This document shows positions 26,674-45,367 of a DNA stretch of 64,000 bases, one piece after another (positions within the stretch are counted from its first letter, which is position 1; each line of letters opens with the position of its first letter). The notes below the pieces were generated by a model. The model ran no database searches and had not been told where the DNA came from. It worked only from the letters and a program-made list of their open reading frames with translations. The position numbers and the translations under genes are program-made. Where the stretch lies: NCBI GenBank assembly GCA_003218375.1, contig QHNH01000009.1, positions 1 to 64,000 on the forward strand. Direction: 5' to 3'. The stretch is from Verrucomicrobiota bacterium (lineage in GTDB: Bacteria; Verrucomicrobiota; Verrucomicrobiia; Chthoniobacterales; UBA10450).

Positions 26674-26747
26674 TGGCTACCCCGCATGGATTCGAACCAT
26701 GAATAACGCCTCCAAAGGGCGCTGTGTTACCGTTACACCACGGGGTA
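26674..26747 (-). tRNA. tRNA-Gln (anticodon TTG)
   Basis: The 74-base gene folds fully. The acceptor stem TACCCCG pairs with CGGGGTA, followed by discriminator G and an encoded CCA. The D stem is GTGT/ACAC, the anticodon stem GCGCC/GGCGT with loop CTTTGGA (anticodon TTG), and the T stem CATGG/CCATG with loop TTCGAAT. It reads Gln codon CAA. Its 3' end faces the DUF3800 gene. Confidence 0.96.
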
Positions 26748-31127: not shown

Positions 31128-32162
31128 CTAGCTTTCGTACAACTTCACGATTGCGTTCGCTTCGTCGCGAACGCGCTTGGCGAGTTCCTTTGGCGCCAGC
31201 ACGCGGACGTGTTTGCCCCAGCTCAAGATCCAGCGCTCGATTTCCTCCAGCCCGCCGAGTTCCAGTTCCAAGATGATCGAGTCGCCGGCGATCTCGCGGA
31301 CGCGCTGGGATTCATGCCATTTCCTTTCGGCCACCAGCCGGGCTGCGAAGGAATCGAACTGCAATCGGATACGCTGTTTCTTTCCTGCGGAGTGAACGCC
31401 AAAGCTGCCGCTCAGGACTTCGGCGATAGAGAAATCGGCCGGGCGCCGGAAACCTTTCGTCGTTAACGCGACTTTTCGCATCCGCGGGAGCGCAAAGGTG
31501 CGCAGTTGCCGGCGCTCCAGGTCCTCGGCGAAAAGGTACCACTGATTTTCCAGGCAACCGAGGTGATAGGGCCGCACCCGCCGCGATTCGTAGCCGCTGC
31601 TCTGCAATTTCCGGTACTCGAATTCCAGCTCCACGCAGCGCAGCACTCCTTTGCTCACCGTTTCAAACAATTCGAGGTCGGCGACGCTCGCGCCCGCGCT
31701 CCGGAATGAGATCGCGTCCTCCAAGTCGTGCCAGGAAAACGAGACGCGGTCCTTCAGGCCATCGGTAATTTTCCGAAAGGCGGAATGGAGCGGGCGCTCG
31801 AACGGTGTCCCTTTGTATTGCGCCAGCGCTTTCTGCGCGACCAGCAGCGCGGTGATCTCGCCCTCGGAAACTTCGATGCTGGGAAATCCGGTGACCGGTT
31901 CCGTGTAATAAAAGCCGAACTCCTGCGGATGATAGTCGATCGGCAACCCGAGCCGGTCCCGCATGAAATCGATGTCGCGCTGGATCGTCTTGGCCGAGAC
32001 CTCCAGCTCCGCCGCGATCTTCTGGCAGTTTGGGAATTTTCTCGCCTTCAGGGCCGCATGCAGCCGCATCATCCGCTGGAGCGGCGGCCGCGAAAACCCG
32101 CGATCGGCCTTCTTCTGGAGCCGCGGCCCTGTGGGCCGCTTGATCGACGCGTCAATTGCCAT
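31128..32162 (-). CDS. WYL-domain transcriptional regulator with N-terminal HTH
   Basis: The product is about 344 residues from ATG 32162. The N-terminal winged helix (PNCQKIAAELEVSAKTIQRDIDFMRDRLGLPIDY) is followed by a WYL/WCX ligand-sensing region (EFEYRKLQSSGYESRRVRPYHLGCLENQWYLFAEDL). It probably controls transcription in response to a nucleotide-like or single-stranded nucleic acid ligand, as known for some WYL proteins. The first 16 or so codons lie inside a GTAG repeat (32111-32207), so the start is uncertain. The next ATG is at 32072, just inside the HTH. Confidence 0.85.
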   Translation of the reverse strand: MAIDASIKRPTGPRLQKKADRGFSRPPLQRMMRLHAALKARKFPNCQKIAAELEVSAKTIQRDIDFMRDRLGLPIDYHPQEFGFYYTEPVTGFPSIEVSEGEITALLVAQKALAQYKGTPFERPLHSAFRKITDGLKDRVSFSWHDLEDAISFRSAGASVADLELFETVSKGVLRCVELEFEYRKLQSSGYESRRVRPYHLGCLENQWYLFAEDLERRQLRTFALPRMRKVALTTKGFRRPADFSIAEVLSGSFGVHSAGKKQRIRLQFDSFAARLVAERKWHESQRVREIAGDSIILELELGGLEEIERWILSWGKHVRVLAPKELAKRVRDEANAIVKLYES

Positions 32163-32207
32163 TGGACGCAACTCTCACGCGGCCCACAGGGCCGCGGCTA
32201 CAGAAGA
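32111..32207. repeat. Family 4 GTAG/CTGTG inverted repeat, copy 1
   Basis: Ends are TCTTCTGGAG and CTACAGAAGA. The left half is GGAG-C, CGCGGCC, loop CTGTG, GGCCGC. The right half on the minus strand is GTAG-C, CGCGGCC, CTGTG, GGCCGCG. It overlaps the 5' end of the WYL regulator frame. Confidence 0.9.
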
Positions 32208-32245
32208 AAATATTTTGAAATTCTTTTAGCATCGGACAGCCCATG

Positions 32246-32265
32246 TCCTACCCCCTGTTTTAGGA
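32246..32265. promoter_or_regulatory. Inverted repeat TCCTA-N10-TAGGA (putative operator)
   Basis: The palindrome lies between the WYL regulator and the small divergent gene, 7 bases before that gene's ATG. Its position suits an autoregulatory site for the WYL protein, but arms of five bases can arise by chance. The AGGA of the right arm may also be the ribosome site of the small gene. Confidence 0.3.
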
Positions 32266-32272
32266 TTGCGCC

Positions 32273-32458
32273 ATGAAAAGATACAAAACTCATTATCCGC
32301 GGCGCAATCTCCTGGCGGTTCCGTATTCCGTTCGGCCCGATCGGATCGAACGCGGCCTGCGCATCCTGCGCGCCTTGCGTCACTCCTTATCCGCGGCCGC
32401 GCCGCTTCCGCGGCCGCAGCAAAAGGAGTTCGATTTCATCGCGGCGAAGCGAGCCTGA
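32273..32458 (+). CDS. Small basic hypothetical protein (61 residues)
   Basis: ATG 32273 is preceded by AGGA at a seven-base spacing. The product is strongly basic and arginine-rich in its first half (MKRYKTHYPRRNLL, DRIERGLRILRALRHSL), with a short Pro/Ala linker and a polar end. No domain is recognised. It is divergent from the WYL regulator and may be a local target of it. A real gene is plausible but not certain. Confidence 0.45.
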   Translation: MKRYKTHYPRRNLLAVPYSVRPDRIERGLRILRALRHSLSAAAPLPRPQQKEFDFIAAKRA

Positions 32459-32479
32459 TTTCCCGCGAGAGAAAGTATT

Positions 32480-32503
32480 GCAACCGGCGGAGCCGGTCGC
32501 TAC
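32480..32503 (-). repeat. Single GTAG hairpin (half element), loop CTCCG
   Basis: On the minus strand: GTAG-CG, ACCGG, loop CTCCG, CCGGT, TGC. The foot and five-base loop follow the same plan as the family 4 halves but with another stem. It lies between the small basic gene and the CBS gene. Confidence 0.65.
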
Positions 32504-32552
32504 GTTCTGTTCCCTGCCGGCGGCTTCGGCTGTCGGTGGCGGCTCTGGAACC

Positions 32553-33002
32553 ATGGACGTAAGCGGAACAATCGAAGCGATTCTCGCCCAAAAAGGGAGC
32601 GAGATTTTCTCGATCTCGCCGGACGCCCTGGTGTTTGAAGCGGTCGAGTTGATGGCAAACAAAAACGTCGGCGCGCTCCTTGTCGTCGAGAACGACAAGC
32701 TGGTCGGGATGATCTCGGAGCGCGATTACACACGTAAGGTCATGTTGCGCGGGAAGAAATCCCGCGAAACTCAGGTGCGCGAGATCATGTCGAGCGACCT
32801 CACCGTCGTCCCACCGCGCGAGCCGGTGGCAAACTGCCTGCGGATGATGACGGATAAACGGGTTCGGCATCTGCCGGTCCTGGATGGCGAGACGATCCGT
32901 GGCGTGATCTCGATCGGCGACCTGGTGAAGTGGGTCATCGCCACCCAATCCGCGGCGATCCAGCATCTGGAGATGTATATCTCGGGCGGTTACACGGGTT
33001 GA
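32553..33002 (+). CDS. CBS-domain protein
   Basis: The product is 149 residues from ATG 32553 (MDVSGTIEAIL). It has two tandem CBS motifs: SPDALVFEAVELMANKNVGALLVV...ISERDYTRKV, then REPVANCLRMMTDKRVRHLPVL...ISIGDLVKWVI. A CBS pair usually binds adenine nucleotides and regulates a partner protein. Stand-alone CBS proteins of this size are common and mostly uncharacterised. The stop codon lies three bases before a repeat; the next gene is convergent pyrC. Confidence 0.9.
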   Translation: MDVSGTIEAILAQKGSEIFSISPDALVFEAVELMANKNVGALLVVENDKLVGMISERDYTRKVMLRGKKSRETQVREIMSSDLTVVPPREPVANCLRMMTDKRVRHLPVLDGETIRGVISIGDLVKWVIATQSAAIQHLEMYISGGYTG

Positions 33003-33005
33003 TCC

Positions 33006-33066
33006 TGTAGCGGCGGTCTGTGACCGCCGCCAGTTCGTAGATCGACGGTCATAGACCGCCGCTACA
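33006..33066. repeat. Family 4 GTAG repeat, short variant (copy 2)
   Basis: The left half is GTAG-C, GGCGGT, loop CTGTG, ACCGCC. The right half on the minus strand is GTAG-C, GGCGGT, loop CTATG, ACCGTC. It sits between convergent CBS and pyrC genes and gives pyrC its TAG stop codon. Confidence 0.9.
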
Positions 33067-34333
33067 ATTTCCACACGGTCTTTCCATCGACAATCGTTCG
33101 CACCGCACGCCCTTTCAGCTTCCAGCCATCGAATGGTGTGTTGCGCGACATCGATTGAAACGCCGCGGCGTCGACGGTCCATTCCAGCTCCGGATCGATC
33201 AGCGTGACGTCCGCGGCGCGATCAACCGAAAGCGTCCCCGCTTCGATCCCCAACAATCGCGCCGGATTCACTGTGAAAATTTCAATCAGCCGCGGCAGCT
33301 CGATCGTTTTGGTTTTGTGAACGAGCAGGTCGAGAAAAAGCCCTAGCTCCGTTTCCAATCCAACGATCCCAAACGGCGCGGCATCGAACTCGACTTCCTT
33401 CTCGAACTGCGCGTGGGGCGCGTGATCGCTGCACAGAATATCGAGGGTGCCGTCCGCGATTCCTTCGAGTAGCGCCGCGACGTCTTCCTTCGCGCGTAAC
33501 GGCGGATTCATTTTGCAATTCGTGTCGAAGTTCTGGATCGCGTCATCGGTGAGCGCGATGTGGTGCGGGCAAACTTCGCCGCTGATTTTCACCCCGCGCG
33601 CCCGCGCTTCGCGCAAAATCCGGACGCTTCCGGCCGCGCTGATATGCTGGCAATGGACCTGGTGATCGCAGAGTTCCGCGAGGAGAACATTCCGCATCAC
33701 GATCGCTTCTTCGCCGGCGCTGGGCCAGCCGGGCAAACCGAGCAAAGTGCTCCAGTAGCCTTCGTGCACCACTCCGCTGCCGACGAGATCGTAATCCTGG
33801 CAATGATCGAGGATTGGCACGCCGACCATGCGCGCATATTCCACCGCACGCCGCATCAGCTCATTGTTCTGGACGCAACGCCCATCGTCCGTGATCGCCA
33901 CCACGCCTGCTTGCGCCAGTGAACCGATCGGCGCCAGCTCTTCGCCCATGAGACCTTTCGAGATCGCACCGGCCGGCAGCACATTCACGCACGCAACTTC
34001 CGCCGCGCGATCCCGGATCCACGCGATCGTCCCCGGACTGTCCGCAGCGGGTGCAGTGTTCGGCATGCAGACAATGGTCGTGAATCCGCCCGCCGCAGCC
34101 GCTCTCGCGCCGCTCTCGATCGTCTCTTTCCAGCCGAACCCCGGCTCGCGCAGATGAACGTGGAGATCGATCAGCCCAGGCGCAACAATCAACCCTGCCG
34201 CGTCGATCACTTCGGGATCCGAACCTTTCGCCTTCGCCGCGATTTTACCATCGACGATAAATAAATCGCCTACTTCATCGCGCTCGTTCGCCGGATCGAT
34301 GATCCGCCCGTTGCGAATAATCGTCATGCTCAT
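33062..34333 (-). CDS. pyrC: Dihydroorotase
   Basis: The product is 423 residues from ATG 34333, which has a GAGGA site seven bases upstream. The open frame runs on into a family 1 repeat, but that part is not family-like. Metal and substrate motifs are DLHVHLREPGF near residue 60 and CMPNTAPA near 95. Further blocks are HCQDYDL, CQHISAAGSVR and the late LCSDHAPH. It closes carbamoyl-aspartate to dihydroorotate. It belongs to the pyrR-pyrB-pyrC group. The stop TAG is the foot of a GTAG repeat. Confidence 0.95.
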   Translation of the reverse strand: MSMTIIRNGRIIDPANERDEVGDLFIVDGKIAAKAKGSDPEVIDAAGLIVAPGLIDLHVHLREPGFGWKETIESGARAAAAGGFTTIVCMPNTAPAADSPGTIAWIRDRAAEVACVNVLPAGAISKGLMGEELAPIGSLAQAGVVAITDDGRCVQNNELMRRAVEYARMVGVPILDHCQDYDLVGSGVVHEGYWSTLLGLPGWPSAGEEAIVMRNVLLAELCDHQVHCQHISAAGSVRILREARARGVKISGEVCPHHIALTDDAIQNFDTNCKMNPPLRAKEDVAALLEGIADGTLDILCSDHAPHAQFEKEVEFDAAPFGIVGLETELGLFLDLLVHKTKTIELPRLIEIFTVNPARLLGIEAGTLSVDRAADVTLIDPELEWTVDAAAFQSMSRNTPFDGWKLKGRAVRTIVDGKTVWKL

Positions 34334-34353
34334 CAGGAATTCCTCGACGCGCC

Positions 34354-34461
34354 GGAACATAGACTTCCAGTCTGTGCGCCCAGCGGAGTTGCACTCCGCT
34401 GAACCGAATAAGACAGCGGAGAACATCGCCGCTGGGCGCATAGGCCACAGGCCCATGTTCC
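34354..34461. repeat. Family 1 inverted repeat, copy 4
   Basis: It fills the pyrB-pyrC gap inside an operon. The left end is GGAACATAG and the right end CCATGTTCC (one change). Foot hairpins are AGACT-TCC-AGTCT and GGCC-TGT-GGCC. pyrB stops two bases from its right end, and the pyrC ribosome site lies just past its left end, so it would be transcribed as a structured spacer. Confidence 0.9.
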
Positions 34462-34463
34462 GT

Positions 34464-35411
34464 TCATGTCGCGATCCCTCCGCAGAGATAGAGCACGGCC
34501 ATGCGAACCGCGAGGCCGTTGGTCACCTGCTCGAGGATGACGCTCTGGGTGCCATCGGCCAATTCGCTGTCGATCTCGACGCCGCGATTGATCGGCCCGG
34601 GATGCATGATGAGGCAATCAGGCTTGAGCCGTTTGCCGCGCTCCTTCGTCAGGCCAAAGAGCCGCACGTATTCGCCGATCCCCGGGAAATATTCCTTTCG
34701 CTGACGTTCGTGCTGAATCCGAAGCAGATTGACCACGTCCGCCGTCTCCAGGACTTCGTCGAGTTTGTGGGTAACGGTCACGCCGAGTTTTTCAAATTCG
34801 CGCGGCACCAGCGTGCTCGGGCCGACGAGGGTCACGCGCGCGCCGAGTTTCAGCAGCCCGAAGATATTCGAGCGCGCCACGCGGCTGAAGAGAATGTCGC
34901 CGATGATCGCGACGTGCAGTCCCGCGACGGTGCCTTTGTGGGCCCGGATCGTGTAAAGATCGAGCAACGCCTGGGTGGGATGTTCGTGCGCGCCGTCGCC
35001 CGCGTTGATGACGCTGGACTTGAGCCGCTCCGCCAGGAATTGCGGCGCGCCGGACGAGCTGTGCCGGAGCACAATGAGATCGGCGTGGTAGGCCTCGAGG
35101 ATTTTCGCCGTGTCCTTGAGCGTCTCGCCCTTGATGAGGCTTGAAGACGAGGCCGAGATGTTGATCACGTCCGCGCTCAGGCGGATCGCAGCAATCTCAA
35201 ACGAGGTTCGCGTCCGCGTGCTCGGCTCGACGAAGAAATTCACCAGCGTCTTGCCGCGCAACGCCGGCACTTTTTTGATCTCGCGGGTGCCGACTTCCTT
35301 GAAGGCATCCGCCGTATCGAGAAGGAAAATGATTTCCTCGGCGGAAAGCTCGCGGATGCCGAGCAAATCTTTCCGTTGCCAGCGCATCTCGGAATTCCCG
35401 GGCGCCGTCAC
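34464..35411 (-). CDS. pyrB: Aspartate carbamoyltransferase catalytic subunit
   Basis: The 315-residue protein carries the carbamoyl-phosphate site [11 protein letters not shown] near residue 62. Other motifs are [11 protein letters not shown] near 143, and the aspartate-binding LRIQHERQ with [12 protein letters not shown] near 270. It condenses carbamoyl phosphate with aspartate. Its GTG start overlaps the pyrR stop (GTGA), so translation is coupled. No regulatory pyrI gene is nearby. Confidence 0.96.
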
Positions 35412-35980
35412 GCCTTTTCCTCCTTGATCAGCCAGACCGCGTCCGGTTCGCCATCGACATCCTCGAGGCGCAAACGGACCTGTTCGCCCGGCGCTGTCGG
35501 AAGATTTTTGCCCACGTAATCCCCGCGGATCGGCAGCTCGCGATGGCCGCGATCGATCAACGCCGCGAGCTGGATTCTGGCGGGCCGCCCGAATGAGCTG
35601 ATCGCATCCATCGCCGCGCGCACGGTTCGGCCCGTAAAGAAAACATCGTCAACGATGATGACGGTCTTTCCTTCGAGCGGCAGGGGCAGGGTGGAGGCCT
35701 GGACGCGCGGCAGTTCCGGACGCGTCCCAATATCGTCACGATGCATCGAAACATCGATTGCCCCGATTCCCACCCGGGGCTGGCCTAACGACTCGATAAT
35801 GTCCGCCAATCGTCCCGCGATCTCGACTCCGCGCGACGGAATCCCGGCGAGAATGACTGTATCGAGCTGCGGATTGCGCTCGACGATTTCGTGCGCGATG
35901 CGGCGAAGGGCGCGATCGATGGCCGCGGCATCCATCACCGGCGCGGTGAGGGATGAGGGAGAAGGAGCGTTTGGTTTCAC
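35408..35980 (-). CDS. pyrR: Bifunctional pyr operon regulator / uracil phosphoribosyltransferase
   Basis: The product is 190 residues from GTG 35980 with AAGGA five bases upstream. The PRPP-binding motif [19 protein letters not shown] is near residue 110, with [15 protein letters not shown] and [10 protein letters not shown] upstream in the protein, all typical of PyrR. In other bacteria PyrR binds pyr mRNA in response to UMP and promotes attenuation. The 53-base gap upstream shows no obvious PyrR-binding loop, so regulation here is uncertain. Confidence 0.92.
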
Positions 35981-36032
35981 AGGATTCCTTGGCGACCTCG
36001 CAGGATCGCATTAAAGGAAAAGCGGCGGAGAT

Positions 36033-36278
36033 TTAAGCGGCTGTTGTTTCGGCTCTGGGCTCCTTCATCCGCTTGTTCCGCCAGCTGGAACGATATTTCA
36101 CGATCCAGTCGAGCAACGCCTTTTCGAAACCGATATCAGCGCCGGCTTTTTCGCTCTCGATCCATTTGTGTTTCAAAATCTCTTCCCGCTCCGCGAGGAA
36201 CTCCTTGTAGAGCACAGAGTTCTTAACGAACTGCGATTGTTCGCCTTCAGCCGCCGTCATGTCGGCACTGTTTTTCAT
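36033..36278 (-). CDS. Small conserved-looking hypothetical protein
   Basis: This 81-residue soluble protein has a charged, mostly helical core (QFVKNSVLYKEFLAEREEIL, then ADIGFEKALLDWIVKYRSSW). It ends in a Lys/Arg-rich tail and has no leader. It lies 52 bases ahead of pyrR on the same strand and could share its promoter. The ordered aromatic/charged pattern suggests a real folded protein, possibly a nucleic-acid or complex-associated helper. The function is unknown. Confidence 0.7.
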   Translation of the reverse strand: MKNSADMTAAEGEQSQFVKNSVLYKEFLAEREEILKHKWIESEKAGADIGFEKALLDWIVKYRSSWRNKRMKEPRAETTAA

Positions 36279-36354
36279 ATTAGCGGGCGCAGGTCAATAA
36301 AAACGATACGCCCCTCTTAGGCGTAGCAGCGGCTGTGCCTATTCAAACTCTGCT

Positions 36355-36446
36355 TCTTCTGTAGCCGCCGCCCTGTGGGCGGCGCGATGGGCGCTGTGCT
36401 GGCCATGCCGATCTCGCGCTTCGCACAGCGAAGCGGCTACAGAAGA
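36355..36446. repeat. Family 4 GTAG/CTGTG inverted repeat, copy 3 (mixed stems)
   Basis: The left half is GTAG-C, CGCCGCC, CTGTG, GGCGGCG. The right half on the minus strand is GTAG-C, CGCTTCG, CTGTG, CGAAGCG. The two halves have quite different stems but an identical foot and loop. The TAG of the right half is the stop codon of mrp. Confidence 0.92.
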
Positions 36447-37480
36447 TGCTCGCGCAGATGATGCGCGATTTTCATGAACTCTGCCGCCACCGGCGAATCG
36501 CTCGATTCGGCGGTAATCGGCATACCGCGATCGCCGGATTCACGGGTGGCGATATCGATCGGGATCTGGCCGAGCAACGGCACCCGCAGCCGCTTCGCTT
36601 CCCGCTCACCGCCGCCCGAGCCAAAGATATCGTAGCGTTTCCCGTCGCTCGGACAGGCGAAGTAGCTCATGTTTTCGATGAGGCCAAGCACGGTCACGTT
36701 GACCTTCTCGAACATGGTCGCGGCCTTTCGTGCGTCGATCAGCGCGACTTCCTGTGGAGTCGTGACGATGATCGCGCCGGCGAGCGCGACAGTTTGGACA
36801 ATCGTGAGCTGGATGTCGCCGGTGCCGGGCGGCAAATCGAGGACGAGATAATCCAGTTCGCCCCACTCCACCTGCCGGAGGAATTGCTGGGTGTACCGCG
36901 TCACCATCGGCCCGCGCAGAATGGCGGGCGCCGCGTCGTCGAGGAGAAAACCCATCGACATCAACTTCAGTCCGTATTGCTCGATCGGGACGATCCGGTT
37001 TTCCTCGGTCGCCATCGGCCGGTCGCGCGAACCGAACATGAGCGAAATGCTCGGGCCGTAGATGTCGCAATCACAAAGGCCGACGCGCGCTTCGGTTTTT
37101 TCCAAAGCGACCGCGAGATTTGCCGCCACGGTCGACTTCCCGACCCCGCCTTTGCCGCTCGCAATGGCAATGACATGCTTCACGCCCTCGATCCGCGTGG
37201 CGCCGACTCCCGCCGCGCCGGCGCCCGCCGGTGGAGCGTGGATGTCGATAAGCACCTTCACGCTTTCAACGCCCGCCATTCCGCGCAACGCCGCTTCCGA
37301 TTCCGTTTTGATCGCCTGTGGAATCGCCGGCTCATTCGTCGCGAGCGCCATTTGCACAGTGACGGCGGCGCCTTCGATCCGGATGGCTTTTACGAGGCCG
37401 AACGACACGATGTCGCGGCTGAAGCCGGGATATTTGACTTGCTTCAACGCTTCCCTGACCTGGTCCTCCGAGATCGGCAT
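36437..37480 (-). CDS. mrp: Iron-sulfur cluster carrier ATPase (Mrp/ApbC)
   Basis: The 347-residue protein has an N-terminal MIP18-like domain of about 90 residues (DQVREALKQVKYPGFSRDIV). The ParA-type ATPase part follows, with deviant Walker A ASGKGGVGKSTVAANLA, switch motif LVLDLPPGTGD and the cluster-binding-type cysteine in ENMSYFACPSDG. Only one Cys of the usual CxxC is visible there. It transfers Fe-S clusters from scaffolds such as Suf to target enzymes. The TAG stop comes from a family 4 repeat. Confidence 0.93.
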   Translation of the reverse strand: MPISEDQVREALKQVKYPGFSRDIVSFGLVKAIRIEGAAVTVQMALATNEPAIPQAIKTESEAALRGMAGVESVKVLIDIHAPPAGAGAAGVGATRIEGVKHVIAIASGKGGVGKSTVAANLAVALEKTEARVGLCDCDIYGPSISLMFGSRDRPMATEENRIVPIEQYGLKLMSMGFLLDDAAPAILRGPMVTRYTQQFLRQVEWGELDYLVLDLPPGTGDIQLTIVQTVALAGAIIVTTPQEVALIDARKAATMFEKVNVTVLGLIENMSYFACPSDGKRYDIFGSGGGEREAKRLRVPLLGQIPIDIATRESGDRGMPITAESSDSPVAAEFMKIAHHLREHLL

Positions 37481-37546
37481 GGGCGTGTAAGGTAACGCCC
37501 CCGGCGAGGGAGTAAACCAGCGCTTGCGAAATCGTCGTGGCCCGAA

Positions 37547-37639
37547 CTACGCGCGATCAGTCGTGTCTTCTTTGCACGCCCAGAAAACACTCATGCACAC
37601 GGAGCCCAGGGCGATCACAAAACTAGATAACGTGAGCAT
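37547..37639 (-). CDS. Possible 30-residue membrane peptide
   Basis: This short frame begins at ATG 37639 and encodes a hydrophobic helix (LTLSSFVIALGSVCMSVFWA) with a charged tail (CKEDTTDRA). The composition suits a single-span small protein. There is no good ribosome site, so confidence is low. It lies in the 275-base gap between mrp and the DUF4440-like gene, which otherwise shows only one palindrome. Confidence 0.3.
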   Translation of the reverse strand: MLTLSSFVIALGSVCMSVFWACKEDTTDRA

Positions 37640-37717
37640 AACAGTTGTCTAGCAACGGTCGTGCCGAGGGCATTTTGCAGGGCAAATCGCCTGCCCGCAT
37701 CAATCCGGCGTTTGTTT

Positions 37718-37737
37718 TCGCGACACAATTGTCGCGA
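37718..37737. promoter_or_regulatory. Perfect 8-bp palindrome TCGCGACA-CAAT-TGTCGCGA
   Basis: It is located just after the DUF4440-like gene. There is no T-tract on the side where transcription would exit, so it is not a standard terminator. It could be an operator or an RNA 3' stabilising hairpin. Confidence 0.35.
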
Positions 37738-37755
37738 TCTCGCCCGAACGCTCCG

Positions 37756-38346
37756 CTATTTCACGAGCATGGCCTGCGACGCCACGCATTGCCATTTGTC
37801 TTTGCGCAACACCCAAACATCGGTCCAACGGAAAGTCCGTTTGAAGGCCTGGCCGTCCTTGGCTTTTCCAGCTTCGATTGAAGTGCCCAGTGCGATCGCG
37901 AACTGCCCGCCGAAAACACGCACCTCCACCTTGCCATTTTTCGTCGAGGTATACGTGTCGGTGTCTTTCTTGATTTCGGAGAGAAGGTTCGATTTGCTCA
38001 TCACCTTGCCCTTGGAGCTGACGCCGCGGAAATCATCGGCGAGATAGGCCTGCGCTTCCGGCGTTGATTTTTTCGTCGGCATCACCGCCGCGGGCGACGA
38101 GCTCGCGCTCGGGGTCGCGCTGGGGCTGCTCTTCGTGGCCGCGGGCGAGGAAGATTTGCTCGGTGAAGCCGAGGCTTCCGATTTTGGTGCGGGCGACGCG
38201 GTTTTTTCGGTCGTGACCGAGACGCTTGGGTCGGATGCGGTTGCTTCGGGGGAAGCAGCGGGCGACGGGCTGTCCTCCTGGGCCAAAACGAATGGCGTGG
38301 CAGCGGCGGCGATAAGCGAGGTAATGGCGACAATAATGATCTTCAT
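37756..38346 (-). CDS. Secreted DUF4440/NTF2-like protein with Ser/Pro/Ala linker
   Basis: The 196-residue product has a signal peptide (MKIIIVAITSLIAAAATPFVLA). About 65 residues of low-complexity Ser/Pro/Ala linker follow, then a short NTF2-like domain from about residue 95 (YLADDFRGVSSKGKVMSKSNLLSEI ... WTDVWVLRKDKWQCVASQAM). The first helices usual in DUF4440 seem to be missing, so the domain is short. The linker suggests a flexible tether to the cell surface. Function unknown. Confidence 0.75.
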   Translation of the reverse strand: MKIIIVAITSLIAAAATPFVLAQEDSPSPAASPEATASDPSVSVTTEKTASPAPKSEASASPSKSSSPAATKSSPSATPSASSSPAAVMPTKKSTPEAQAYLADDFRGVSSKGKVMSKSNLLSEIKKDTDTYTSTKNGKVEVRVFGGQFAIALGTSIEAGKAKDGQAFKRTFRWTDVWVLRKDKWQCVASQAMLVK

Positions 38347-38528
38347 TTGGTTCTCCCGTTATGGATTTGGCGCAGGCGCGAGCCCGGCCCCGAATCGGTT
38401 TGAGGCGCGAATCGTAGGGAGCGCCGCGACCTTGCGTCAAGGCTGAATTACTGCGCAAGACCGGCTGGCTGCGATCGTGCTCTAACGACTTGACGGGGGG
38501 TGTAGCATTGTCCCCAGAAATTCGTAAG

Positions 38529-39977
38529 ATGCGCTTTTCCACGATTCGAAACATTCTCGGCAGCCTCGCCCTCGGGGCCCTCATCGTTTATACGATGCGC
38601 CTGTCGGACCCGCCGAAAGCGCAGCCGCCCAGCCCGTCAGTCGCGACTGTTCCCGCACCACTGCCGGCGGAGGCGACACTCATCGCCGGCCCATCCATTG
38701 GAATAGAAACGCAGTTGCCGGTAGTGCCCGCGCGGCGCTCGCACCGGATCGATAATTGTTTCAACCCTGAGACCGATCTGAGCGCGCCCATCGTCCGCGG
38801 AAAGAACGCGGTGATCACGGCCGCGTTGAAAGAGGAGTGGGAAATCGTCCGCAAATTGATCGATGCCGGCGCTCCGGTTGAATCCGCGGATGAAACCGGT
38901 CTTACCGCGCTCATGGTGGCGGCCCAACGTGGCAACATCGAGATGCTCCGCACTTTGCTCGAACGCCAGGCCCGCATCGACTTCATGGATTTCGAGGGCC
39001 GCACCGCGATCCATTATGCGATGGCCGCCGGGAAACGGGAGGCGGTGGAACTTCTCGTGTTATACGCCCCGCGTTTTGACCCCGATTCTGCCACCGCGCG
39101 CGATCTGCTGACGGCGGCGCTGGCCACCGGCGACATGGCGATTTTCCAGACGATCCTCGAACGCTTCCCGCCCACCTTGGAATGGACGGCCAATACTCGC
39201 CGCGCGCTCGAGGCCGCCCTCAGCCACGACATGAAGGAACAAGTGCGCCTGCTTCTGAGCAAACATCCCGCTCCGCCTACGCGGGAAAGCGGCACCGTTC
39301 CGCTGATCGCGTACGCTATTGCCAGCGATGACCTGCCGCTTTTCCGAACCCTGCTCGCCTGCGGCAGCGATCCGAACCTTGCCATCCCCAAAGCCGCCGA
39401 GAAAGAGTTCCTGGCGCTGATTAAATCCAAATACCTGCGGATCTATGTCCAGGAAGACGGCGTGAACCTTCTCATGCTCGCGGCCGGGCTCGGCAAAGCC
39501 GATTTCGTCCGCGCTTTACTCGATGCCGGGGCCGATCGCAACCGGCACACGCCCCGCGAAAAAATGCTGCCGCTTTATTTCGCCGCCTGGACGGAGAATT
39601 GGCAATGCGTCCAGATGCTGCTCGGCGGTGGACCGGGGCCGGAGCAATTGCGCGTCGAGATCTCGCTCGCGCAACAGCATGCCGCCGTGATCAAGGACGG
39701 CATCACCGTTTTCACAACGAAAGTTTCTACCGGCCGCAATGGTTTCACTACCAAGCCCGGTTACTACGTCATCACCGACAAGGACCGCGATCATCGCTCC
39801 ACGATCTACAAGTGCCCGATGCCTTATTTTATGCGGTTGAGCTGCCGTGATTTCGGGATGCACGAGGGTGTGGTCCAGCCTTATCCGGCATCGCATGGTT
39901 GCATCCGGTTGCCGGGCGATGCGGCGAAAAAACTTTTCGTCGATCTGCCAATCGGCACGGTCGTCAGCATTAATTAG
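38529..39977 (+). CDS. Ankyrin-repeat protein fused to an L,D-transpeptidase (YkuD) domain
   Basis: The product is 482 residues from ATG 38529. An N-terminal hydrophobic signal-anchor (NILGSLALGALIVYTM) and a Pro-rich linker precede about 8 ankyrin-like repeats (for example TGLTALMVAAQRGNIEMLRTLL and GVNLLMLAAGLGKADFVRALL). The C-terminal ~110 residues form a YkuD domain (QHAAVIKDGITVFTTKVSTG) whose active site is MHEGVVQPYPASHGCIRLP. It should act in the periplasm on peptidoglycan, making 3-3 crosslinks or attaching proteins, with the ankyrins as a binding arm. The order of these domains in one protein is unusual. Confidence 0.88.
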   Translation: MRFSTIRNILGSLALGALIVYTMRLSDPPKAQPPSPSVATVPAPLPAEATLIAGPSIGIETQLPVVPARRSHRIDNCFNPETDLSAPIVRGKNAVITAALKEEWEIVRKLIDAGAPVESADETGLTALMVAAQRGNIEMLRTLLERQARIDFMDFEGRTAIHYAMAAGKREAVELLVLYAPRFDPDSATARDLLTAALATGDMAIFQTILERFPPTLEWTANTRRALEAALSHDMKEQVRLLLSKHPAPPTRESGTVPLIAYAIASDDLPLFRTLLACGSDPNLAIPKAAEKEFLALIKSKYLRIYVQEDGVNLLMLAAGLGKADFVRALLDAGADRNRHTPREKMLPLYFAAWTENWQCVQMLLGGGPGPEQLRVEISLAQQHAAVIKDGITVFTTKVSTGRNGFTTKPGYYVITDKDRDHRSTIYKCPMPYFMRLSCRDFGMHEGVVQPYPASHGCIRLPGDAAKKLFVDLPIGTVVSIN

Positions 39978-40007
39978 CTGTAGCCGCTTCGCTGTGCGAA
40001 GCGTGGG
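39978..40007 (+). repeat. Single GTAG/CTGTG half element
   Basis: CTGTAG-C, CGCTTCG, loop CTGTG, CGAAGCG directly follows the stop codon of the ankyrin/transpeptidase gene and ends just before pdxH. No opposing half is present. Confidence 0.85.
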
Positions 40008-40016
40008 TTTCCCAAT

Positions 40017-40673
40017 ATGGATGAAACGCCGATTTCGGAATTGAGCGGGCTGCGCCACGAATACGATGCGCATGGGCTCCGCCGCGCCGATCTTCATTCG
40101 GACCCGATCGAGCAATTCCGCGCCTGGTTCGCCGCTGCGCTCGCCGCCGACATCCGCGATGTCAACGCGATGAGCCTCGCCACCGCGACGCCGGATGGAA
40201 AACCTTCCGTCCGCATCGTTTTGCTGAAGGGCATCGACAGGCGCGGTTTCAGTTTTTTCACGAACTACGACAGCGCGAAAGGCCGCGATCTCGAAGCGAA
40301 TCCTTATGCGGCGCTCGGATTTTACTGGGTGAAGCTCGAACGCCAGATCCGGATCAGCGGGCCGGTCGAGAGAACTTCGAGAGAGGATTCCGCCGCTTAT
40401 TTTCACTCACGGCCTCCCGGCAGCCGGCTCGCGGCCTGGGCCTCGAAGCAAAGCGAAGTTATCGATGCCCGGAAAGTCCTCGACGCGCGTTTCGAAGAAA
40501 TGAAGGAACGTTTCGAGGGCGAAGAAATCGCGCTTCCGCCGCACTGGGGCGGATACCGGGTGCTGCCGGAGCAGATGGAATTCTGGCAGGGCCGGCCCAA
40601 CCGGCTCCACGATCGCTTCCGTTACACGCGCCGCCCGGATGGAACCTGGCAGATCGATCGCCTCGCGCCGTGA
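40017..40673 (+). CDS. pdxH: Pyridoxamine 5'-phosphate oxidase
   Basis: The 218-residue protein is the usual PdxH length. FMN- and substrate-binding blocks are NAMSLATATPDGKPSVRIVLLKG, FFTNYDSAKGRDLEANP, LERQIRISGPVER, and the C-terminal PPHWGGYRVLPEQMEFWQGRPNRLHDRF, which carries the PdxH signature. It oxidises pyridoxamine or pyridoxine phosphate to PLP. The next gene starts inside its stop codon (GTGA). Confidence 0.96.
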   Translation: MDETPISELSGLRHEYDAHGLRRADLHSDPIEQFRAWFAAALAADIRDVNAMSLATATPDGKPSVRIVLLKGIDRRGFSFFTNYDSAKGRDLEANPYAALGFYWVKLERQIRISGPVERTSREDSAAYFHSRPPGSRLAAWASKQSEVIDARKVLDARFEEMKERFEGEEIALPPHWGGYRVLPEQMEFWQGRPNRLHDRFRYTRRPDGTWQIDRLAP

Positions 40674-41446
40674 CGCCCGGCGATTCTTCGCGCTCGCGCG
40701 GCTGGAAAGATAATCCGCATCCGCGCTATTGGTGGCATCGTCTGCCGGGAACCGATTACGTCCCGCCGGTTTACTCCGACCTAAGCGACGCCGAATGGGC
40801 CGTGCTCCGCGAGTGGTATGCGGAGACGGATCGCAGCGGCCCGATCGGCGAATGCGCGGTGCCGCTTATTTCCCTGCTCCACGGCCTCGTCATGGGAAAT
40901 CGTATTAGCCGTATCGCGCAACTCGGGACGTGCGCCGGTTATTCAGCTCTACTTCTGGGATGGATGCTGCGCCGGATGAACACGCCGCACGCCCTGTTCG
41001 CCTTGGATCTCGATCCCGCGATGTGTGAGCTGTCACGGCGCTGGATCATCCGCGCCGGACTGCAAGATTTTGTCGAGGTCGCGGAAGGCAGTTCCCTCGA
41101 TGACCGATCGATCATGTCCGCCCGAAAATATCTCAACGGCAATCCCGAGCTCGTCATTCTCGACAGTTCCCACGAATACCAGTCCACGCTCGCCGAGCTT
41201 GATCTCTGGTATGGCGCGGTCGCGCCGGGCGGCCTGCTCGTTCTTCACGACGTGAGCGAATTCGCCGCCGAGTTTGACGTTACCCGCGAGGGCGGAGTGC
41301 GCCGAGCGTTCGCCGAATGGCGCAAAATCCATCCGGAAGCGGAAACGCTTTCGCTCAACAGCGATTCGCGTTCGATGGAAGCAGCGCGACCGCTCTACAA
41401 AGATGCTTGCGGCGTCGGCCTGATCCATAAACCGCAATATGGCTGA
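40670..41446 (+). CDS. Class I SAM-dependent methyltransferase
   Basis: The 258-residue protein has the SAM-binding motif I region [16 protein letters not shown] near residue 86. The acidic motif II is [15 protein letters not shown], and the post-core [23 protein letters not shown] resembles the Methyltransf_24 group. It would methylate a small molecule or sugar; the acceptor is unknown. It is translated from a GTG overlapping the pdxH stop and overlaps the macro-domain gene by eight bases. Confidence 0.82.
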
Positions 41447-41948
41447 GGCGCGACTGACTCTGCTTCGCGGCGACATCACGAAGCTCGCCGTCGATGCGAT
41501 CGTGAACGCGGCCAATACCACATTGCTCGGCGGCGGAGGAGTCGACGGCGCCATTCATCGGGCCGCCGGTCCGGAACTTCTCGCCGAATGCAAAACGCTC
41601 GGTGGTTGTCGCCCGGGCGAAGCCAAAATCACTCGCGGCTATTTGTTGCCGGCGCGTTTCGTCATTCACACCGTCGGTCCTGTCTGGTCCGGCGGCCATC
41701 GCAGCGAACCCGAGACGCTCGCCAATTGCTATCGAAACTCTCTGCGCCTCGCTTCGGAGAACGGCCTGCGCACGATCGCCTTTCCCGCCATCAGTTGCGG
41801 CGCCTATCGTTATCCCATCGCGGACGCCGCCCGAATCGCAGTGCAAACCACCACGGAATTCTTGCGGGACAATGCCTCGATCGCGGAAGTGACCTTCGTC
41901 GTTTCCACCGACGAGATCGAAGCCGCATACGAGCGGCTTCTCGCCTGA
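41439..41948 (+). CDS. Macro-domain protein (O-acetyl-ADP-ribose deacetylase type)
   Basis: The 169-residue single macro domain has ADP-ribose-binding motifs [34 protein letters not shown] near the N-terminus, then [10 protein letters not shown] and [13 protein letters not shown]. It matches the YmdB/MacroD group that removes ADP-ribose from proteins or deacetylates O-acetyl-ADP-ribose. It overlaps the methyltransferase gene, so both are probably expressed together. Confidence 0.93.
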
Positions 41949-41968
41949 CGCGTCGAACCGCTCCTCTT

Positions 41969-42010
41969 CGTTCGGCGTTGGACGTTCGGCGTTGGGCGTT
42001 CGACGTTTTC
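41969..42010. repeat. Tandem 14-bp repeat, three units
   Basis: CGTTCGGCGTTGGA, CGTTCGGCGTTGGG and CGTTCGACGTTTTC lie end to end in the short gap before hrpB, ending seven bases ahead of its ATG. They may affect its leader. Confidence 0.8.
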
Positions 42011-42016
42011 CCCTCC

Positions 42017-44554
42017 ATGCCGCGCGACCTGCCAATCTACGAGCTCGAGCACTCCATCGTCGCCGAACTCCAAGCCCACGCCCGCCTCATCATCCAGGCT
42101 CCCACCGGTTCCGGAAAATCGACCCAGGTCCCGCAAATTCTCCTCGATCACGGCATGCTCGGCGACGGCCAGGTCGTCATCCTCCAACCGCGCCGCCTCG
42201 CCGCTCGTCTTCTCGCCGCGCGCGTCGCCTCCGAGCGCAAGTGCCGACTCGGCGATGAAGTCGGCTACCAGATCCGTTTCGAAAACATCACCTCACCACG
42301 CACCCGGATTCGCTTCGTCACCGAAGGAATCCTCCTGCGCCAACTGGTCCAGGATCCGGAGCTGCGCGGCATCTCCACCATTCTTTTCGACGAATTCCAT
42401 GAGCGCCATCTGTATGGCGACATCACTCTCGCCCGTGCGCTTCAGCTCCAGGCGACCTCACGCCCCGATCTCAAGCTCGCCGTCATGTCCGCCACCTTGG
42501 ATGCGGGCCTCTTGCAAAAATATCTGGCGCCCTGCTCCCTCCTCACTTCTGCCGGGCGCGCCTTTCCGGTCGAGATCGAATACCTGGCCAAGCCCGTCGG
42601 CGGCGACGGCTATCCGATCTGGGATCTCGCCGCGGACGAATTGGAACGGCTCGCGCCGCAAACAAAAGGCGATGTGCTGATCTTCATGCCGGGAAAATAT
42701 GAGATCGGGCGAACGATCGCCGCCATTCGCGCGTCGCGCGTCAGCGATCGCTTCGTTGTCCTGCCGCTTCACGGCGAACTGCCGCCAGCGGAGCAGGACG
42801 CCGCGCTGGCCCATTACCAGAAACGGCGCGCCATCGTCTCGACTAATGTCGCCGAAACCTCGCTCACCATCGATGGCGTCCAGGTCGTGATCGACAGCGG
42901 GCTGGCGCGGATCGCGCGGTTCGATCCTCGCCGCGGCATCAACACCTTGCTCGTCGAAAAAATCAGCCGCGCTTCCGCCGATCAACGCGCTGGCCGCGCC
43001 GGCCGGACCGCGCCGGGCCGCTGTCTGCGTCTTTGGACGGAGCGTGAGCATCTCGATCGTGCCGCGCAGGAATTGCCTGAGGTGAAACGACTCGATCTCG
43101 CCGAAGTCGTGCTGACTCTCAAAGCGAGCGGCATTGACGACATCGCCGCCTTCCGCTGGCTCGAGCCGCCCGAATCCCAAGCTCTCGCCCGCGCCGAAGA
43201 ATTGCTCGTCGATCTCGGCGCAATTTCTTCTCCGGGGAGAATAACCCCGCTCGGGCGCCGGATGCTGGCGTTTCCGGTCCATCCTCGTTACGCGCGCATG
43301 TTGCTCGCGGCGCACGAATATCGCTGCGTCCCCGCTATCGCGTTGATCGCGGCGCTCACCCAGGGCCGCAACCTCTTGCGCCGCCTCGAGGGCAAACCGG
43401 CCCGTGAAGATCGAGACGATGTCCTCGGTGGTGAAACGGAATCCGACTTTTTCATCTTGATGCGCGCCTTTCGCTACGCGGAAAACAGCCGGTTCGATGG
43501 GCAACGTTGTTCGCGCCTCGGGATCAACGCGGGCGCGGCCCGCGAAGCCGCGCAATTGTCCGAGCAATTCCTCGCCATCGCGCGGGACGAAGGCCTCGAT
43601 CTGCAGAGGGGCGAGGCGAAAACCGGCGCGATCCAGCGTTGCGTCCTCGCCGGTTTTCCCGATCAGGTCGCCGTCCGGCTCGATGCCGGGACGTTGCGTT
43701 GCGCCCTCGTGCATGCGCGGCGCGGTGTCCTCGCGCGCGAAAGCGCGGTGCACGACGCGCGCTTGCTGGTGGCGTCCGAGATCCGGGAAATCGAAAGCAG
43801 CGAGAAGGAGCGCCAGGTCTTGCTCACGATGGCGACGAAGATCGAGGAAGAATGGCTGCGCGATTTGTTCCCGGAATCGTTCCGCGAAGAAACGCGCGTC
43901 GAATTCGATTCGGCGCTCCGACGTGTGATCGGTCGCCGCGCTACACTGTTTCATGATCTCGTGTTGCGGAGCGAAGAATTTTCCGCCGCGGATGAGCCCG
44001 CCACCGCGCAGCTCCTTGCCCGCGAGGTTGTGGCCGGGACCTGTCCGATCAAACATTGGGACAACGCCGTCGAACAATGGATCGCGCGGGTCAACTTCGT
44101 CGCCGCGCAATTTCCGGAGTTGGAATTCTCGCGGATCGACGCGGCGGCGAAGCTGCTGCTCCTCGAACAAATTTGCCAGGGCGCCACGAGCTACAAGGAA
44201 ATCAAAGATCGGCCGGTGGGGCCGATCGTGAAATCGTGGTTGAACGGCGCCCAACAAAAGGCGCTCGACGATCTCGCCCCGGAGCGGATCAAACTGGCCG
44301 GCGGCCGCGCAGCAAAAATCACCTATGCCGACGATGGCGCGCCGCCCACGATCGCCGCCCGGATCCAGGATTTATACGACACTCCGCGCGGTCTCAGTGT
44401 CGGCCGTGGCCGCATTCCGCTCCGAATCCAGGTCCTGGCGCCGAACCATCGCCCGATCCAGATCACCAATGATCTGGAAACCTTCTGGCGCGTGGGCTAT
44501 CCGAAAATAAAGAAGGAACTCCAGCGCAAGTATCCCAAGCACGTGTGGCGCTGA
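42017..44554 (+). CDS. hrpB: ATP-dependent helicase HrpB
   Basis: The product is 845 residues from ATG 42017, the usual HrpB length. The frame is open further upstream only as a shadow of the macro gene. DEAH-box motifs are I QAPTGSGKSTQVPQ, II FDEFHERHLYGD, III MSATLDAG, V STNVAETSLTIDGV and VI QRAGRAGRTAPGRC, with the helicase-associated and HrpB C-terminal regions after them. It is an RNA helicase of unclear cellular role. It shows DEFH instead of DEAH, as is normal for HrpB. Confidence 0.95.
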   Translation: MPRDLPIYELEHSIVAELQAHARLIIQAPTGSGKSTQVPQILLDHGMLGDGQVVILQPRRLAARLLAARVASERKCRLGDEVGYQIRFENITSPRTRIRFVTEGILLRQLVQDPELRGISTILFDEFHERHLYGDITLARALQLQATSRPDLKLAVMSATLDAGLLQKYLAPCSLLTSAGRAFPVEIEYLAKPVGGDGYPIWDLAADELERLAPQTKGDVLIFMPGKYEIGRTIAAIRASRVSDRFVVLPLHGELPPAEQDAALAHYQKRRAIVSTNVAETSLTIDGVQVVIDSGLARIARFDPRRGINTLLVEKISRASADQRAGRAGRTAPGRCLRLWTEREHLDRAAQELPEVKRLDLAEVVLTLKASGIDDIAAFRWLEPPESQALARAEELLVDLGAISSPGRITPLGRRMLAFPVHPRYARMLLAAHEYRCVPAIALIAALTQGRNLLRRLEGKPAREDRDDVLGGETESDFFILMRAFRYAENSRFDGQRCSRLGINAGAAREAAQLSEQFLAIARDEGLDLQRGEAKTGAIQRCVLAGFPDQVAVRLDAGTLRCALVHARRGVLARESAVHDARLLVASEIREIESSEKERQVLLTMATKIEEEWLRDLFPESFREETRVEFDSALRRVIGRRATLFHDLVLRSEEFSAADEPATAQLLAREVVAGTCPIKHWDNAVEQWIARVNFVAAQFPELEFSRIDAAAKLLLLEQICQGATSYKEIKDRPVGPIVKSWLNGAQQKALDDLAPERIKLAGGRAAKITYADDGAPPTIAARIQDLYDTPRGLSVGRGRIPLRIQVLAPNHRPIQITNDLETFWRVGYPKIKKELQRKYPKHVWR

Positions 44555-44570
44555 CTCGGCTTGCCGCCGA

Positions 44571-44622
44571 TGGAGGGCGGAGCTCCAGCGACGCCGGGCT
44601 CGCCGGAGCTCGCCCCTCCACG
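44571..44622. repeat. Inverted repeat with GGAG feet (TGGAGGGCGGAGCTCC)
   Basis: TGGAGGGCGGAGCTCC on the left is mirrored by GGAGCTCGCCCCTCCA on the right. It lies in the 157-base gap after hrpB and resembles the other elements in having GGAG at both feet. Confidence 0.7.
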
Positions 44623-44711
44623 AAATCAAACCACGCGAGGCGACGCCACCGGCACGAAAAGAACGAACGAAAGGAGAGGCGCAGGAGTCTCACCACTTAC
44701 GAATTATTTAT

Positions 44712-45209
44712 ATGATCAATCCGAATGGTGATGAATTTATGGAGGACGATCCGCTGGCTGCCTCGATGAGGTCGAGCGAGGAGCGCGCCTCCGAACAAAC
44801 TCCCGGCCGTCTCCGCCAGGCGACCGGAAAAGTCTCAACTTTTGCCGGCGACGCCTGGGAACAAACCAAGGAACGCGCCAGCGTGGCCCGCGAACGCACG
44901 GAATTTTTCCTGCGCGAAAACCCGGTGCCGACTGTCCTCGGCGCGCTTGCCCTGGGGGTCGCGATTGGGTTGGCGATCCGCTATTCTTCCAGCTCCGCCG
45001 AAAAGGAAGTCGAAGCGAAATCGCCCCTCGCCAATGTCGATCTCAGCATTCTTTCCCTGCCGTTTCTCTGGCCGCTCTTCAAGTCGGTCCGGCGCAAATA
45101 CGAAGATTCTGCCGAGGCGGTGAAGGATGGCGTGGGCCGGTTGAAGAAAGTCGATGTCGATCGCTACGTGAAACCGCTTCGCAAGAAGTGGCGAGCGTGG
45201 GCGAACTAA
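44712..45209 (+). CDS. DUF883/YqjD-like membrane-anchored protein
   Basis: The product is 165 residues. A polar, helical N-terminal part (RLRQATGKVSTFAGDAWEQTKERASVARERTEFFLRENP) leads to one membrane span (VPTVLGALALGVAIGLAIRY) near residue 80. The REN-P plus glycine-rich helix is typical of the ElaB/YqjD/DUF883 group. Unlike those proteins it continues for 80 residues past the membrane with a Lys-rich tail. It may associate with ribosomes or stress responses, by analogy only. A second ATG is at 44739. Confidence 0.7.
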   Translation: MINPNGDEFMEDDPLAASMRSSEERASEQTPGRLRQATGKVSTFAGDAWEQTKERASVARERTEFFLRENPVPTVLGALALGVAIGLAIRYSSSSAEKEVEAKSPLANVDLSILSLPFLWPLFKSVRRKYEDSAEAVKDGVGRLKKVDVDRYVKPLRKKWRAWAN

Positions 45210-45225
45210 GAGCTGTTATCGCTCT

Positions 45226-45334
45226 TCTTCTGTAGCCGCCGCCCTGTGGGCGGCGTGAGCTGCGGCAACGATTTCTCCCGAGCGTCCCACAGGGACGCTG
45301 CTCCAGAAGATAGCGGCGACAGCTTTGCTGTCGC
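45226..45334. repeat. Family 4 GTAG/CTGTG inverted repeat, copy 4, plus adjoining single hairpin
   Basis: The left half is GTAG-C, CGCCGCC, CTGTG, GGCGGCG. The right half (minus strand, ending 45310) is GGAG-C, AGCGTCC, CTGTG, GGACGCT. It is directly followed by ATAG-C and a perfect hairpin GCGACAGC-TTT-GCTGTCGC (45316-45334) with ATTTTG after it, which may also terminate transcription. Confidence 0.85.
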
Positions 45335-45367
45335 ATTTTGCGAAACGGCGATGCTAATCTCGCCGGC

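Follow-up and report, generated by a model that had tools for sequence, protein, structure and literature searches.

GTAG-tagged facing hairpins in a Verrucomicrobiota genome are probable REPINs of a dedicated TnpA_REP transposase

Introduction

Repetitive extragenic palindromic (REP) sequences tagged with a GTAG foot form families with 6-9 bp stems, short loops and subfamilies that carry alternative complementary stem residues; they occur as head-head dimers near gene ends, their feet supply TAG stop codons, and one genome can hold several families with repeat-specific REPtrons (PMC3733652, Di Nocera et al. 2013). TnpA_REP transposases of group 3 depend on a stem without mismatches and on certain loop bases; they cleave at CT, and GTAG helps them in site choice (PMC8266576). 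Here we analyze GTAG-footed hairpins in a stretch of 64,000 nucleotides (hereafter the window) from a Verrucomicrobiota bacterium (assembly GCA_003218375.1, 97.8% complete; contig QHNH01000009.1, positions 1 to 64,000), which an earlier inspection of the letters, the sequence-only reading, had proposed as a REP-like family. Judged from sequence, these hairpins are very likely REP doublets forming hairpins (REPINs), that is, non-autonomous facing pairs of GTAG-REPs which would be moved by a dedicated REP-associated tyrosine transposase (RAYT) encoded at C52:21706-22173 of the same genome (C, L and G numbers are our handles for contigs, loci and genomes).

The hairpins thus join an already known kind, that of the GTAG-REPs and REPINs. 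The same phylum includes Opitutus terrae, a verrucomicrobium. This organism has GTAG families and the most intragenic GTAG repeats of those described, and cases in which intragenic REPs contribute residues to proteins are already published (PMC3733652). The hairpins of the window resemble the GTAG-tagged REPs of that paper in foot, stem length, short loop, dimers, gene-end placement, TAG stops and the presence of several families. They differ in their T-R-T loop class (R, purine), as compared with the text of the paper, whose family table may hold an equal sequence, and in the polarity of two stem classes, here named Y and Z, relative to the RAYT gene, which the consulted part of the text does not mention. 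The bacterial interspersed mosaic elements of E. coli likewise combine non-identical REP types (y, z1, z2) into y-z mosaics with GTAG and TnpA_REP, but the E. coli REPs are described with a mismatch bulge and variable loops, whereas perfect stems and a constrained loop prevail here (PMC8266576). In perfect stem, constrained loop, CT and GTAG, there is a likeness to the substrates of group 3 TnpA_REP from Stenotrophomonas and Marinomonas, although the loop sequence differs and our hairpins are known from sequence alone (PMC8266576).

Results and discussion

Abundance and anatomy of the hairpins

The window contains seven half-hairpins of the main family, scored in bits with a covariance model that was built from halves and whose training set included five of these seven:

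32111-32207: REPIN 1, same-stem pair, folds as one long hairpin
32111-32142, plus strand: half of REPIN 1, GGAGC CGCGGCCC TGT, one stem mismatch, 46.1 bits
32176-32207, minus strand: half of REPIN 1, GTAGC CGCGGCCC TGT, 54.8 bits
36355-36446: REPIN 2, two-stem pair, two hairpins on a base stem when folded
36355-36386, plus strand: Z half of REPIN 2, CGCCGCCC TGT, 55.2 bits
36415-36446, minus strand: Y half of REPIN 2, CGCTTCGC TGT, 52.7 bits
39974-40005, plus strand: single Y half, GTAGC CGCTTCGC TGT, 45.6 bits
45226-45310: REPIN 3, two-stem pair, folding gives two hairpins
45226-45257, plus strand: half of REPIN 3, CGCCGCCC TGT, 55.7 bits
45279-45310, minus strand: half of REPIN 3, GGAGC AGCGTCCC TGT, 47.5 bits

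These halves score 45.6-55.7 bits, and the next match in the window reaches 14.5 bits. The sequence-only reading had placed nine halves in one family, each with CTGTG or CTATG and a G[TG]AG foot. All nine are present (32117+, 32201-, 33007+, 33065-, 36361+, 36440-, 39980+, 45232+, 45304-), and seven of them do belong together; the pair near 33006, at 10.3 bits under the main-family model, has to be set apart, and so does a hairpin at 32480 that had been taken for a single half (loop TCC, one mismatch). The stem of 6-7 bp around a five-nucleotide CTGTG loop proved to be a stem of 8 bp around a loop of three nucleotides, because the closing C-G pair had been counted as loop.

A genome scan with the covariance model, as the sequence-only reading had advised, found at least 150 copies, a lower bound since all 150 of the candidates scored passed. 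A genome-wide pattern search gave 204 matches versus 47 for the reversed pattern. Further tallies refer to a sample of 864 kb, consisting of the window and 40 blocks of 20 kb from the same genome. The anchor pattern G[TG]AG-N-N8-T[GA]T-N8 with up to three stem mismatches retrieved 106 halves from it, of which 93 had no mismatch, 7 had one, 2 had two and 4 had three, followed by a background hump; the corresponding means in five first-order Markov shuffles of the sample were 0, 0.2, 1.0 and 3.2. A few of the 106 halves are therefore chance matches, as shuffles also yield some stems with two or three mismatches. CTGTG alone was not enriched in the window (50 occurrences versus 57.7 expected), and thus the signal lies in the structure.

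The foot was GTAGC in 99 of the 106 halves, GGAGC in four, GTAGT in two and GTAGA in one, and CT immediately preceded it in 101. In an unanchored check of 579 perfect hairpins with at least 8 pairs and loops of 3-5 nucleotides, 77 of the 85 strand readings with a TGT loop had a G[TG]AG foot. The loop, which had been regarded as fixed, varies within T-R-N, with TGT predominant: in a set of 115 halves, which includes four halves of another family, all with TGC loops, we counted TGT 83, TAT 17, TGC 12, TGG 2 and TAG 1 times. Stems fell into 17 types in this set (two from another family). Their identity is not free, as had been supposed: CGCTTCGC (Y) accounts for 42 of the 106 halves and CGCCGCCC and CGTCGCCC (Z) for 18 each, together 78, and among the stem pairs, 6 is invariant and 2 and 8 are nearly so, versus variable pairs 1, 3, 4, 5 and 7.

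That unlike stems are each paired by their own complement was borne out in 34 distinct halves (5 of 39 were left out as chance). Paired cells amounted to 97.4% versus 75.8% with the 3' letters re-dealt, double-changed cells to 52 versus 13.8 and the covariation score to 0.539 versus 0.148 (at most 0.119 for slid partners); none of 500 shuffles matched any of the three values. Pairing is hence preserved while the stem letters stay confined to a few classes. Free drift of the stems, which we had considered, was rejected in view of the occurrence of the same Y and Z stems beside RAYTs of other genera; being common to several genera, these stems appear old.

Clean stem classes with few intermediates (93 perfect stems, seven with one mismatch) would also be expected if the elements were REPs whose pairing is maintained by template-switch repair between the quasi-palindrome arms, and not by selection through a RAYT. 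Such arm-to-arm correction would not, however, fix the loop, the foot, the CT and pairs 2, 6 and 8 while pairs 1, 3, 4, 5 and 7 change, nor would it give the Y/Z polarity described below, and we consider this explanation rather unlikely.

Facing pairs and their polarity

In agreement with the prevalence of facing pairs claimed earlier, 110 of the 115 halves form 55 such pairs, which measure 63-104 bp and carry the foot on the outside, and five are single; no other orientation within 150 bp occurred among the 115 halves. These numbers do not support the half as the unit, which the sequence-only reading had suggested. Two pairs of 63 bp belong to another family, and the remaining 53 span 70-104 bp. 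Equal stems were found in 5 of the 55 pairs, versus 10.5 ± 2.5 after random re-pairing (P = 0.0175). When the 53 main-family pairs were subjected to DNA folding, all five equal-stem pairs formed one long hairpin, and 32 of the 42 pairs with at least three stem differences folded as two hairpins. The unlike stems of facing halves thus mostly let each half fold alone.

The Y and Z halves are also oriented relative to the transposase gene. Across 16 RAYT loci (one without a half under the filter, and one extra top-strand half unassigned), the top-strand halves along the RAYT gene direction were Y in 15 of 16 cases and the bottom-strand halves Z in 19 of 20 (Fisher's test, 4e-8).

The candidate cognate transposase

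Twelve PF01797 matches were found in the genome. The search for a RAYT with matching flanks, also proposed by the sequence-only reading, led to L013 (C52:21706-22173, 155 aa), which has a facing family pair with the same foot and loop class on each side. It scores 101 bits with NF047646, the NCBIfam REP transposase model (cut-off 80), and the solved structure closest to its profile is E. coli TnpA_REP (4er8, E = 9.9e-14). The gene is single-copy in the assembly, and five other matches of the same genome at 1e-20 are at most 51% identical. H67, H69, Y120 and Y126 are invariant in 12 of 12 aligned RAYTs, either tyrosine being a candidate catalytic residue. The earlier RAYT/REP interpretation is thereby sustained, and none of the three outcomes that had been named as contrary to it occurred, namely absence of further copies, uncompensated stem mutations and loops as variable as the stems.

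As a Y1 HUH protein (PF01797) with a weak match to the IS200 model, L013 could also belong to an IS200/IS605 insertion sequence, with the hairpins as its ends. This is highly improbable: the protein passes the REP transposase model and not the IS200 model (25.2 bits, below the cut-off of 55), and a single-copy gene, with no near-identical copies in the assembly, stands against at least 150 hairpins.

Other RAYTs of the genome are accompanied by other hairpins, namely GTAG-CGGCGGTC-TAT at L014 (the family of the pair near 33006), AGGYGCTTG-TGC at L011, and hairpins with GGAG and the loop CCCT at L010 and L012. As a separate observation, the flanks of the RAYT L016 show a GTGG foot replacing GTAG, with stems ATCGMGCG and loop CTCCGN. 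The closest matches of the L013-type RAYT in named genomes were mostly Verrucomicrobiota assemblies.

The REPIN reading of the hairpins draws on their anatomy, copy number, stem covariation, mainly intergenic placement, matching RAYT flanks and Y/Z polarity, all observed in the sequence. Recognition, CT cleavage and mobility by the RAYT would follow by analogy with the published biochemistry of other TnpA_REP enzymes. When a single strand is exposed, each half would fold alone; the RAYT would read the GTAG foot, the T-R-T loop with its closing C-G pair and the paired stem, and would cut at the CT directly before GTAG. If it needs pairing above a given stem sequence, stems could shift by paired changes within a few classes, and different stems (Y, Z) in facing halves would prevent pairing between the halves and give the element a polarity. 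Kept foot, CT, loop and pairing with partly free stem letters are therefore the pattern that such an enzyme would leave.

Flanks, loops and copy numbers in relatives

All eight RAYTs that are 65-71% identical to L013 have at least one adjoining family hairpin with a T[GA]N loop; that of G070 is also adjoined by a TCT Y half. Seven RAYTs of 55-60% identity (L098-L104) are accompanied by the same stem types with TCT or TCC loops, and six of ~54-59% identity (L105, L107-L111) by other hairpins. When 34 RAYTs were placed on a tree, the TCT group formed one clade (99/96), and the TGT/TAT group surrounded it without being a clade. Six REP labels, available for 28 of the 34 rows, need five changes on this tree, which is the minimum, versus a shuffled mean of 16.4. 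At L013 positions 51, 52, 73, 82 and 89, the TGT- and TCT-loop groups share no residue; position 89, for example, is Q in L013 versus R in the TCT clade. A loop census of exact Y halves was made among the matches listed for 15 genomes, six of which had their copies wholly or mostly outside those; among the matches listed, TGT was found in 42 of 42 halves of G030 and TGT or TAT in 33 of 33 of G024. In G024, a Z half lies in frame within the RAYT gene (L095), to which it contributes the residues SPTGRR.

Genomic placement

The REPINs are mainly intergenic, as assessed with a rough longest-ORF gene pick (ORF, open reading frame; 88% coding), which at 36446 chose the wrong strand. By this pick, 39 of the 53 lie between genes (19 convergent, 18 tandem, 2 divergent) and one at an ORF edge, and random intervals fell inside ORFs in 82.6% and between them in 11% of cases. 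Nine picked ORFs stop on the TAG of a main-family foot. In the window, ORF 36437-37480 (minus strand), which has a strong NUBPL/ParA match, closes on the foot TAG of REPIN 2, and the single Y half at 39974-40005 lies at the junction of ORFs 38490-39977 and 40017-40673 (both plus strand).

Such a placement, with 37 of 53 REPINs between convergent or tandem genes versus two between divergent genes, and the ORFs ending on foot TAGs would also suit bidirectional terminators or stabilizers of mRNA 3' ends that serve the host, with an incidental RAYT link. A host terminator, however, has no need of a GTAG foot with a preceding CT, a fixed loop or a facing pair, and RAYT genes of several genera are bordered by these same hairpins, arranged with Y/Z polarity. 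Furthermore, a terminator scan of window positions 31500-46000, which returned 27 sites, picked none of the seven main-family halves; the hairpin at 32480 was the only one of the hairpins considered here among these sites. We therefore regard a host function of this kind as quite improbable.

Observations that weigh against the REPIN reading

Several results do not fit easily with REPINs moved by one dedicated RAYT. In the covariation set, stem pairs with any double change (5 versus 4.5 shuffled) and further pair types (12 versus 11.9) did not exceed chance. The avoidance of equal stems is modest, and co-amplified founders could explain it. Of the facing pairs with at least three stem differences, 3 of 42 cross-paired and 7 of 42 gave mixed folds; with two differences, 4 of 6 cross-paired and 2 of 6 folded as two hairpins. 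Nine of the 53 REPINs lie inside ORFs of the rough pick, and four overlap them.

Among the relatives, G009 is rich in GTAGA-CGCTTCGC-TCT copies beside GTAGC-TGT, and no TCT-clade RAYT was found in this genome. Among the matches listed, G012, G022 and G028 mix TGT and TCT, and the Y copies of G070 have TCT in 3 of 3, yet its RAYT falls among the TGT enzymes. The correlation between copy number and RAYT similarity is only weak (Spearman 0.33; 82 relatives, counts up to at least 86). G018 and G039 hold at least 86 copies with RAYTs of 48-55% identity and G059 holds 76 with no RAYT at 1e-20, whereas G022 and G070, which have close RAYTs, hold 6 and 9.

Two narrower ideas were tried and given up. 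The second loop base as a strict key of the RAYT was not upheld, as genome copies mix loops, and the idea that copy number reports the presence of the RAYT found only weak support in the correlation above.

Other hairpin families of the window

Hairpins outside the main family were found at the following positions:

33003-33069: REPIN of a second GTAG family, CGGCGGTC, loops TGT and TAT, halves at 33007 (plus strand) and 33065 (minus strand)
32480-32503, minus strand: half-hairpin outside the main family, GTAG foot, loop TCC, one mismatch, terminator-like
34353-34462: palindromic pair of a third family, kin of the pair that flanks the carB-embedded RAYT described below
11847-11961: palindromic pair of the third family, second window copy
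2739-2825: facing pair of a fourth family, GTAG GGACGCNT, loop TTCCG
8423-8510: facing pair of the fourth family, second copy, loop TTCCG

The second-family REPIN sits between the convergent ORFs 32478-33002 (plus strand) and 33062-34456 (minus strand), the latter of which has its stop codon in the TAG of a REPIN foot. One half-sequence pattern of this family has 16 copies in the genome, and similar hairpins flank another RAYT (C3:85672-86148). The TTCCG-loop family comprises 15 hairpins with a foot in the 864-kb sample. We also observed that the third-family pair at 34353-34462 extends into the beginning of the dihydroorotase-like ORF 33062-34456 and is adjoined by a carbamoyltransferase ORF (34464-35411, minus strand). 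Elsewhere in the window, an Rfam match to RF03075 (DUF3800-VIII RNA) was detected at 26500-26565 (minus strand; 42.5 bits, gathering threshold 40.2), with a tRNA nearby at 26677-26747 (minus strand).

Candidate RAYT inserts in housekeeping genes

Three RAYTs of the genome are read in frame within long ORFs of housekeeping genes:

L058:4612-8619, plus strand: RAYT in frame in carB between CPSase domains, 1335 aa, REP model at residues 600-702
L059:3379-7857, minus strand: RAYT in frame in metH, 1492 aa, REP model at residues 393-534
L060:4953-7622, minus strand: RAYT in frame in recG, 889 aa, REP model at residues 395-535

With the REP model (cut-off 80 bits), metH passes at 84.1 bits and carB (65.3) and recG (68.9) remain below; the Pfam model Y1_Tnp exceeds its cut-off for carB and metH, and for recG this takes the addition of neighboring stretches. 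Each of the three genes has one match in the genome. The carB RAYT is flanked by peptides that a palindromic pair encodes, and copies of this pair lie at window positions 34353-34462 and 11847-11961. We also noted a second in-frame insert near residue 1167 of the metH frame, which is a REP without a RAYT, and metH N-terminal frames of only ~350-400 aa in many relatives, which gives the impression of a gene broken into two parts.

Among 83 examined genomes of the family, 70 yielded 72 carB rows, none with stops inside. The frames measured 1318-1388 aa in 21 rows and 1057-1127 aa in 29, were shorter in 20 and lay between these classes in two; that of G036, in the 1057-1127 aa class, is a RAYT-bearing frame cut by a contig end. 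We compared 25 carB and 12 recG chimeras, and the insert was in the same stretch wherever the junction was readable (22 of 25 and 12 of 12, respectively). Between DxWFL and GFSDRQLA, CarB carries 275-314 residues with the insert versus 37-48 in the three readable of five insert-free congeners, and between APTQxLA and GTHAL, RecG carries 257-277 residues versus 56-76 in four insert-free genomes. By a simple motif test, the HUH motif was present in 24 of 25 carB and 11 of 12 recG chimeras and the tyrosine motif in all. The closest carB pairs gave nonsynonymous-to-synonymous rate ratios (dN/dS) of ~0.1-0.26 (e.g. 0.06/0.48, 0.07/0.27 and 0.13/0.95), most other pairs being saturated, which indicates purifying selection on the RAYT part.

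RAYT identity and host-segment identity did not run in parallel (r = 0.20 for 276 carB pairs and -0.03 for 66 recG pairs), and relatives share insertion sites that often hold a different RAYT type. For example, host segments of RecG from our genome and G030 are 91% alike and the inserts 50%; in the comparison with G004, inserts are 81% and hosts 82% alike. Within genus g1, the carB insert is present in G000 and G024 and, by frame length, absent from G030, G018, G006, G035 and G042; the frame of G039 is cut. Repeated insertion, gene conversion or transfer of host genes may each account for shared sites with different RAYTs. The carB RAYT of our genome is closest (74%) to L121 and L122, RAYTs in frame in genes of G033 and G040 that we labeled mqnA-like by eye from their sequence, with no family search. 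An order-wide search of 197 genomes gave a match at 1e-15 in 79, with long frames in several families; L125 and L146, outside family f1, read as carB. Open frames of at least 280 aa contained the L013-type RAYT at 9 of 60 loci of named genomes.

Taken together, we lean towards the view that some RAYTs of this order are translated as domains inserted in frame into single-copy housekeeping enzymes, putatively CarB, RecG and MetH and, in relatives, an MqnA-like protein. They would be bounded by in-frame palindromes and held under purifying selection, and the same codon sites would be entered anew by different RAYT types, in a homing-like manner that recalls inteins without known splicing. The carB RAYT would have small mobile relatives in the window pairs at 34353-34462 and 11847-11961. 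Rickettsia palindromic elements and intragenic REPs are likewise palindromic repeats in frame in genes, but those described in PMC3733652, as far as its consulted text goes, add 20 to 82 amino acids, whereas a whole transposase gene appears to be in frame here. A literature search of titles and abstract openings, with few subscription journals covered, found no whole RAYT in frame in a housekeeping gene.

Conclusions

The hairpins amount to a natural experiment in the reading of DNA by a REP transposase, in which pairing and loop are kept and the stem letters shift in classes. Because the TCT and TGT groups are split at only five positions of L013, the specificity of these enzymes is testable by residue swaps. 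If the fusion proteins are made as read, a transposase can be maintained within essential enzymes and leave them functional, which would represent a survival strategy of selfish DNA other than those of inteins and introns, and the insertion sites in this order would provide a large set of natural domain-insertion sites.

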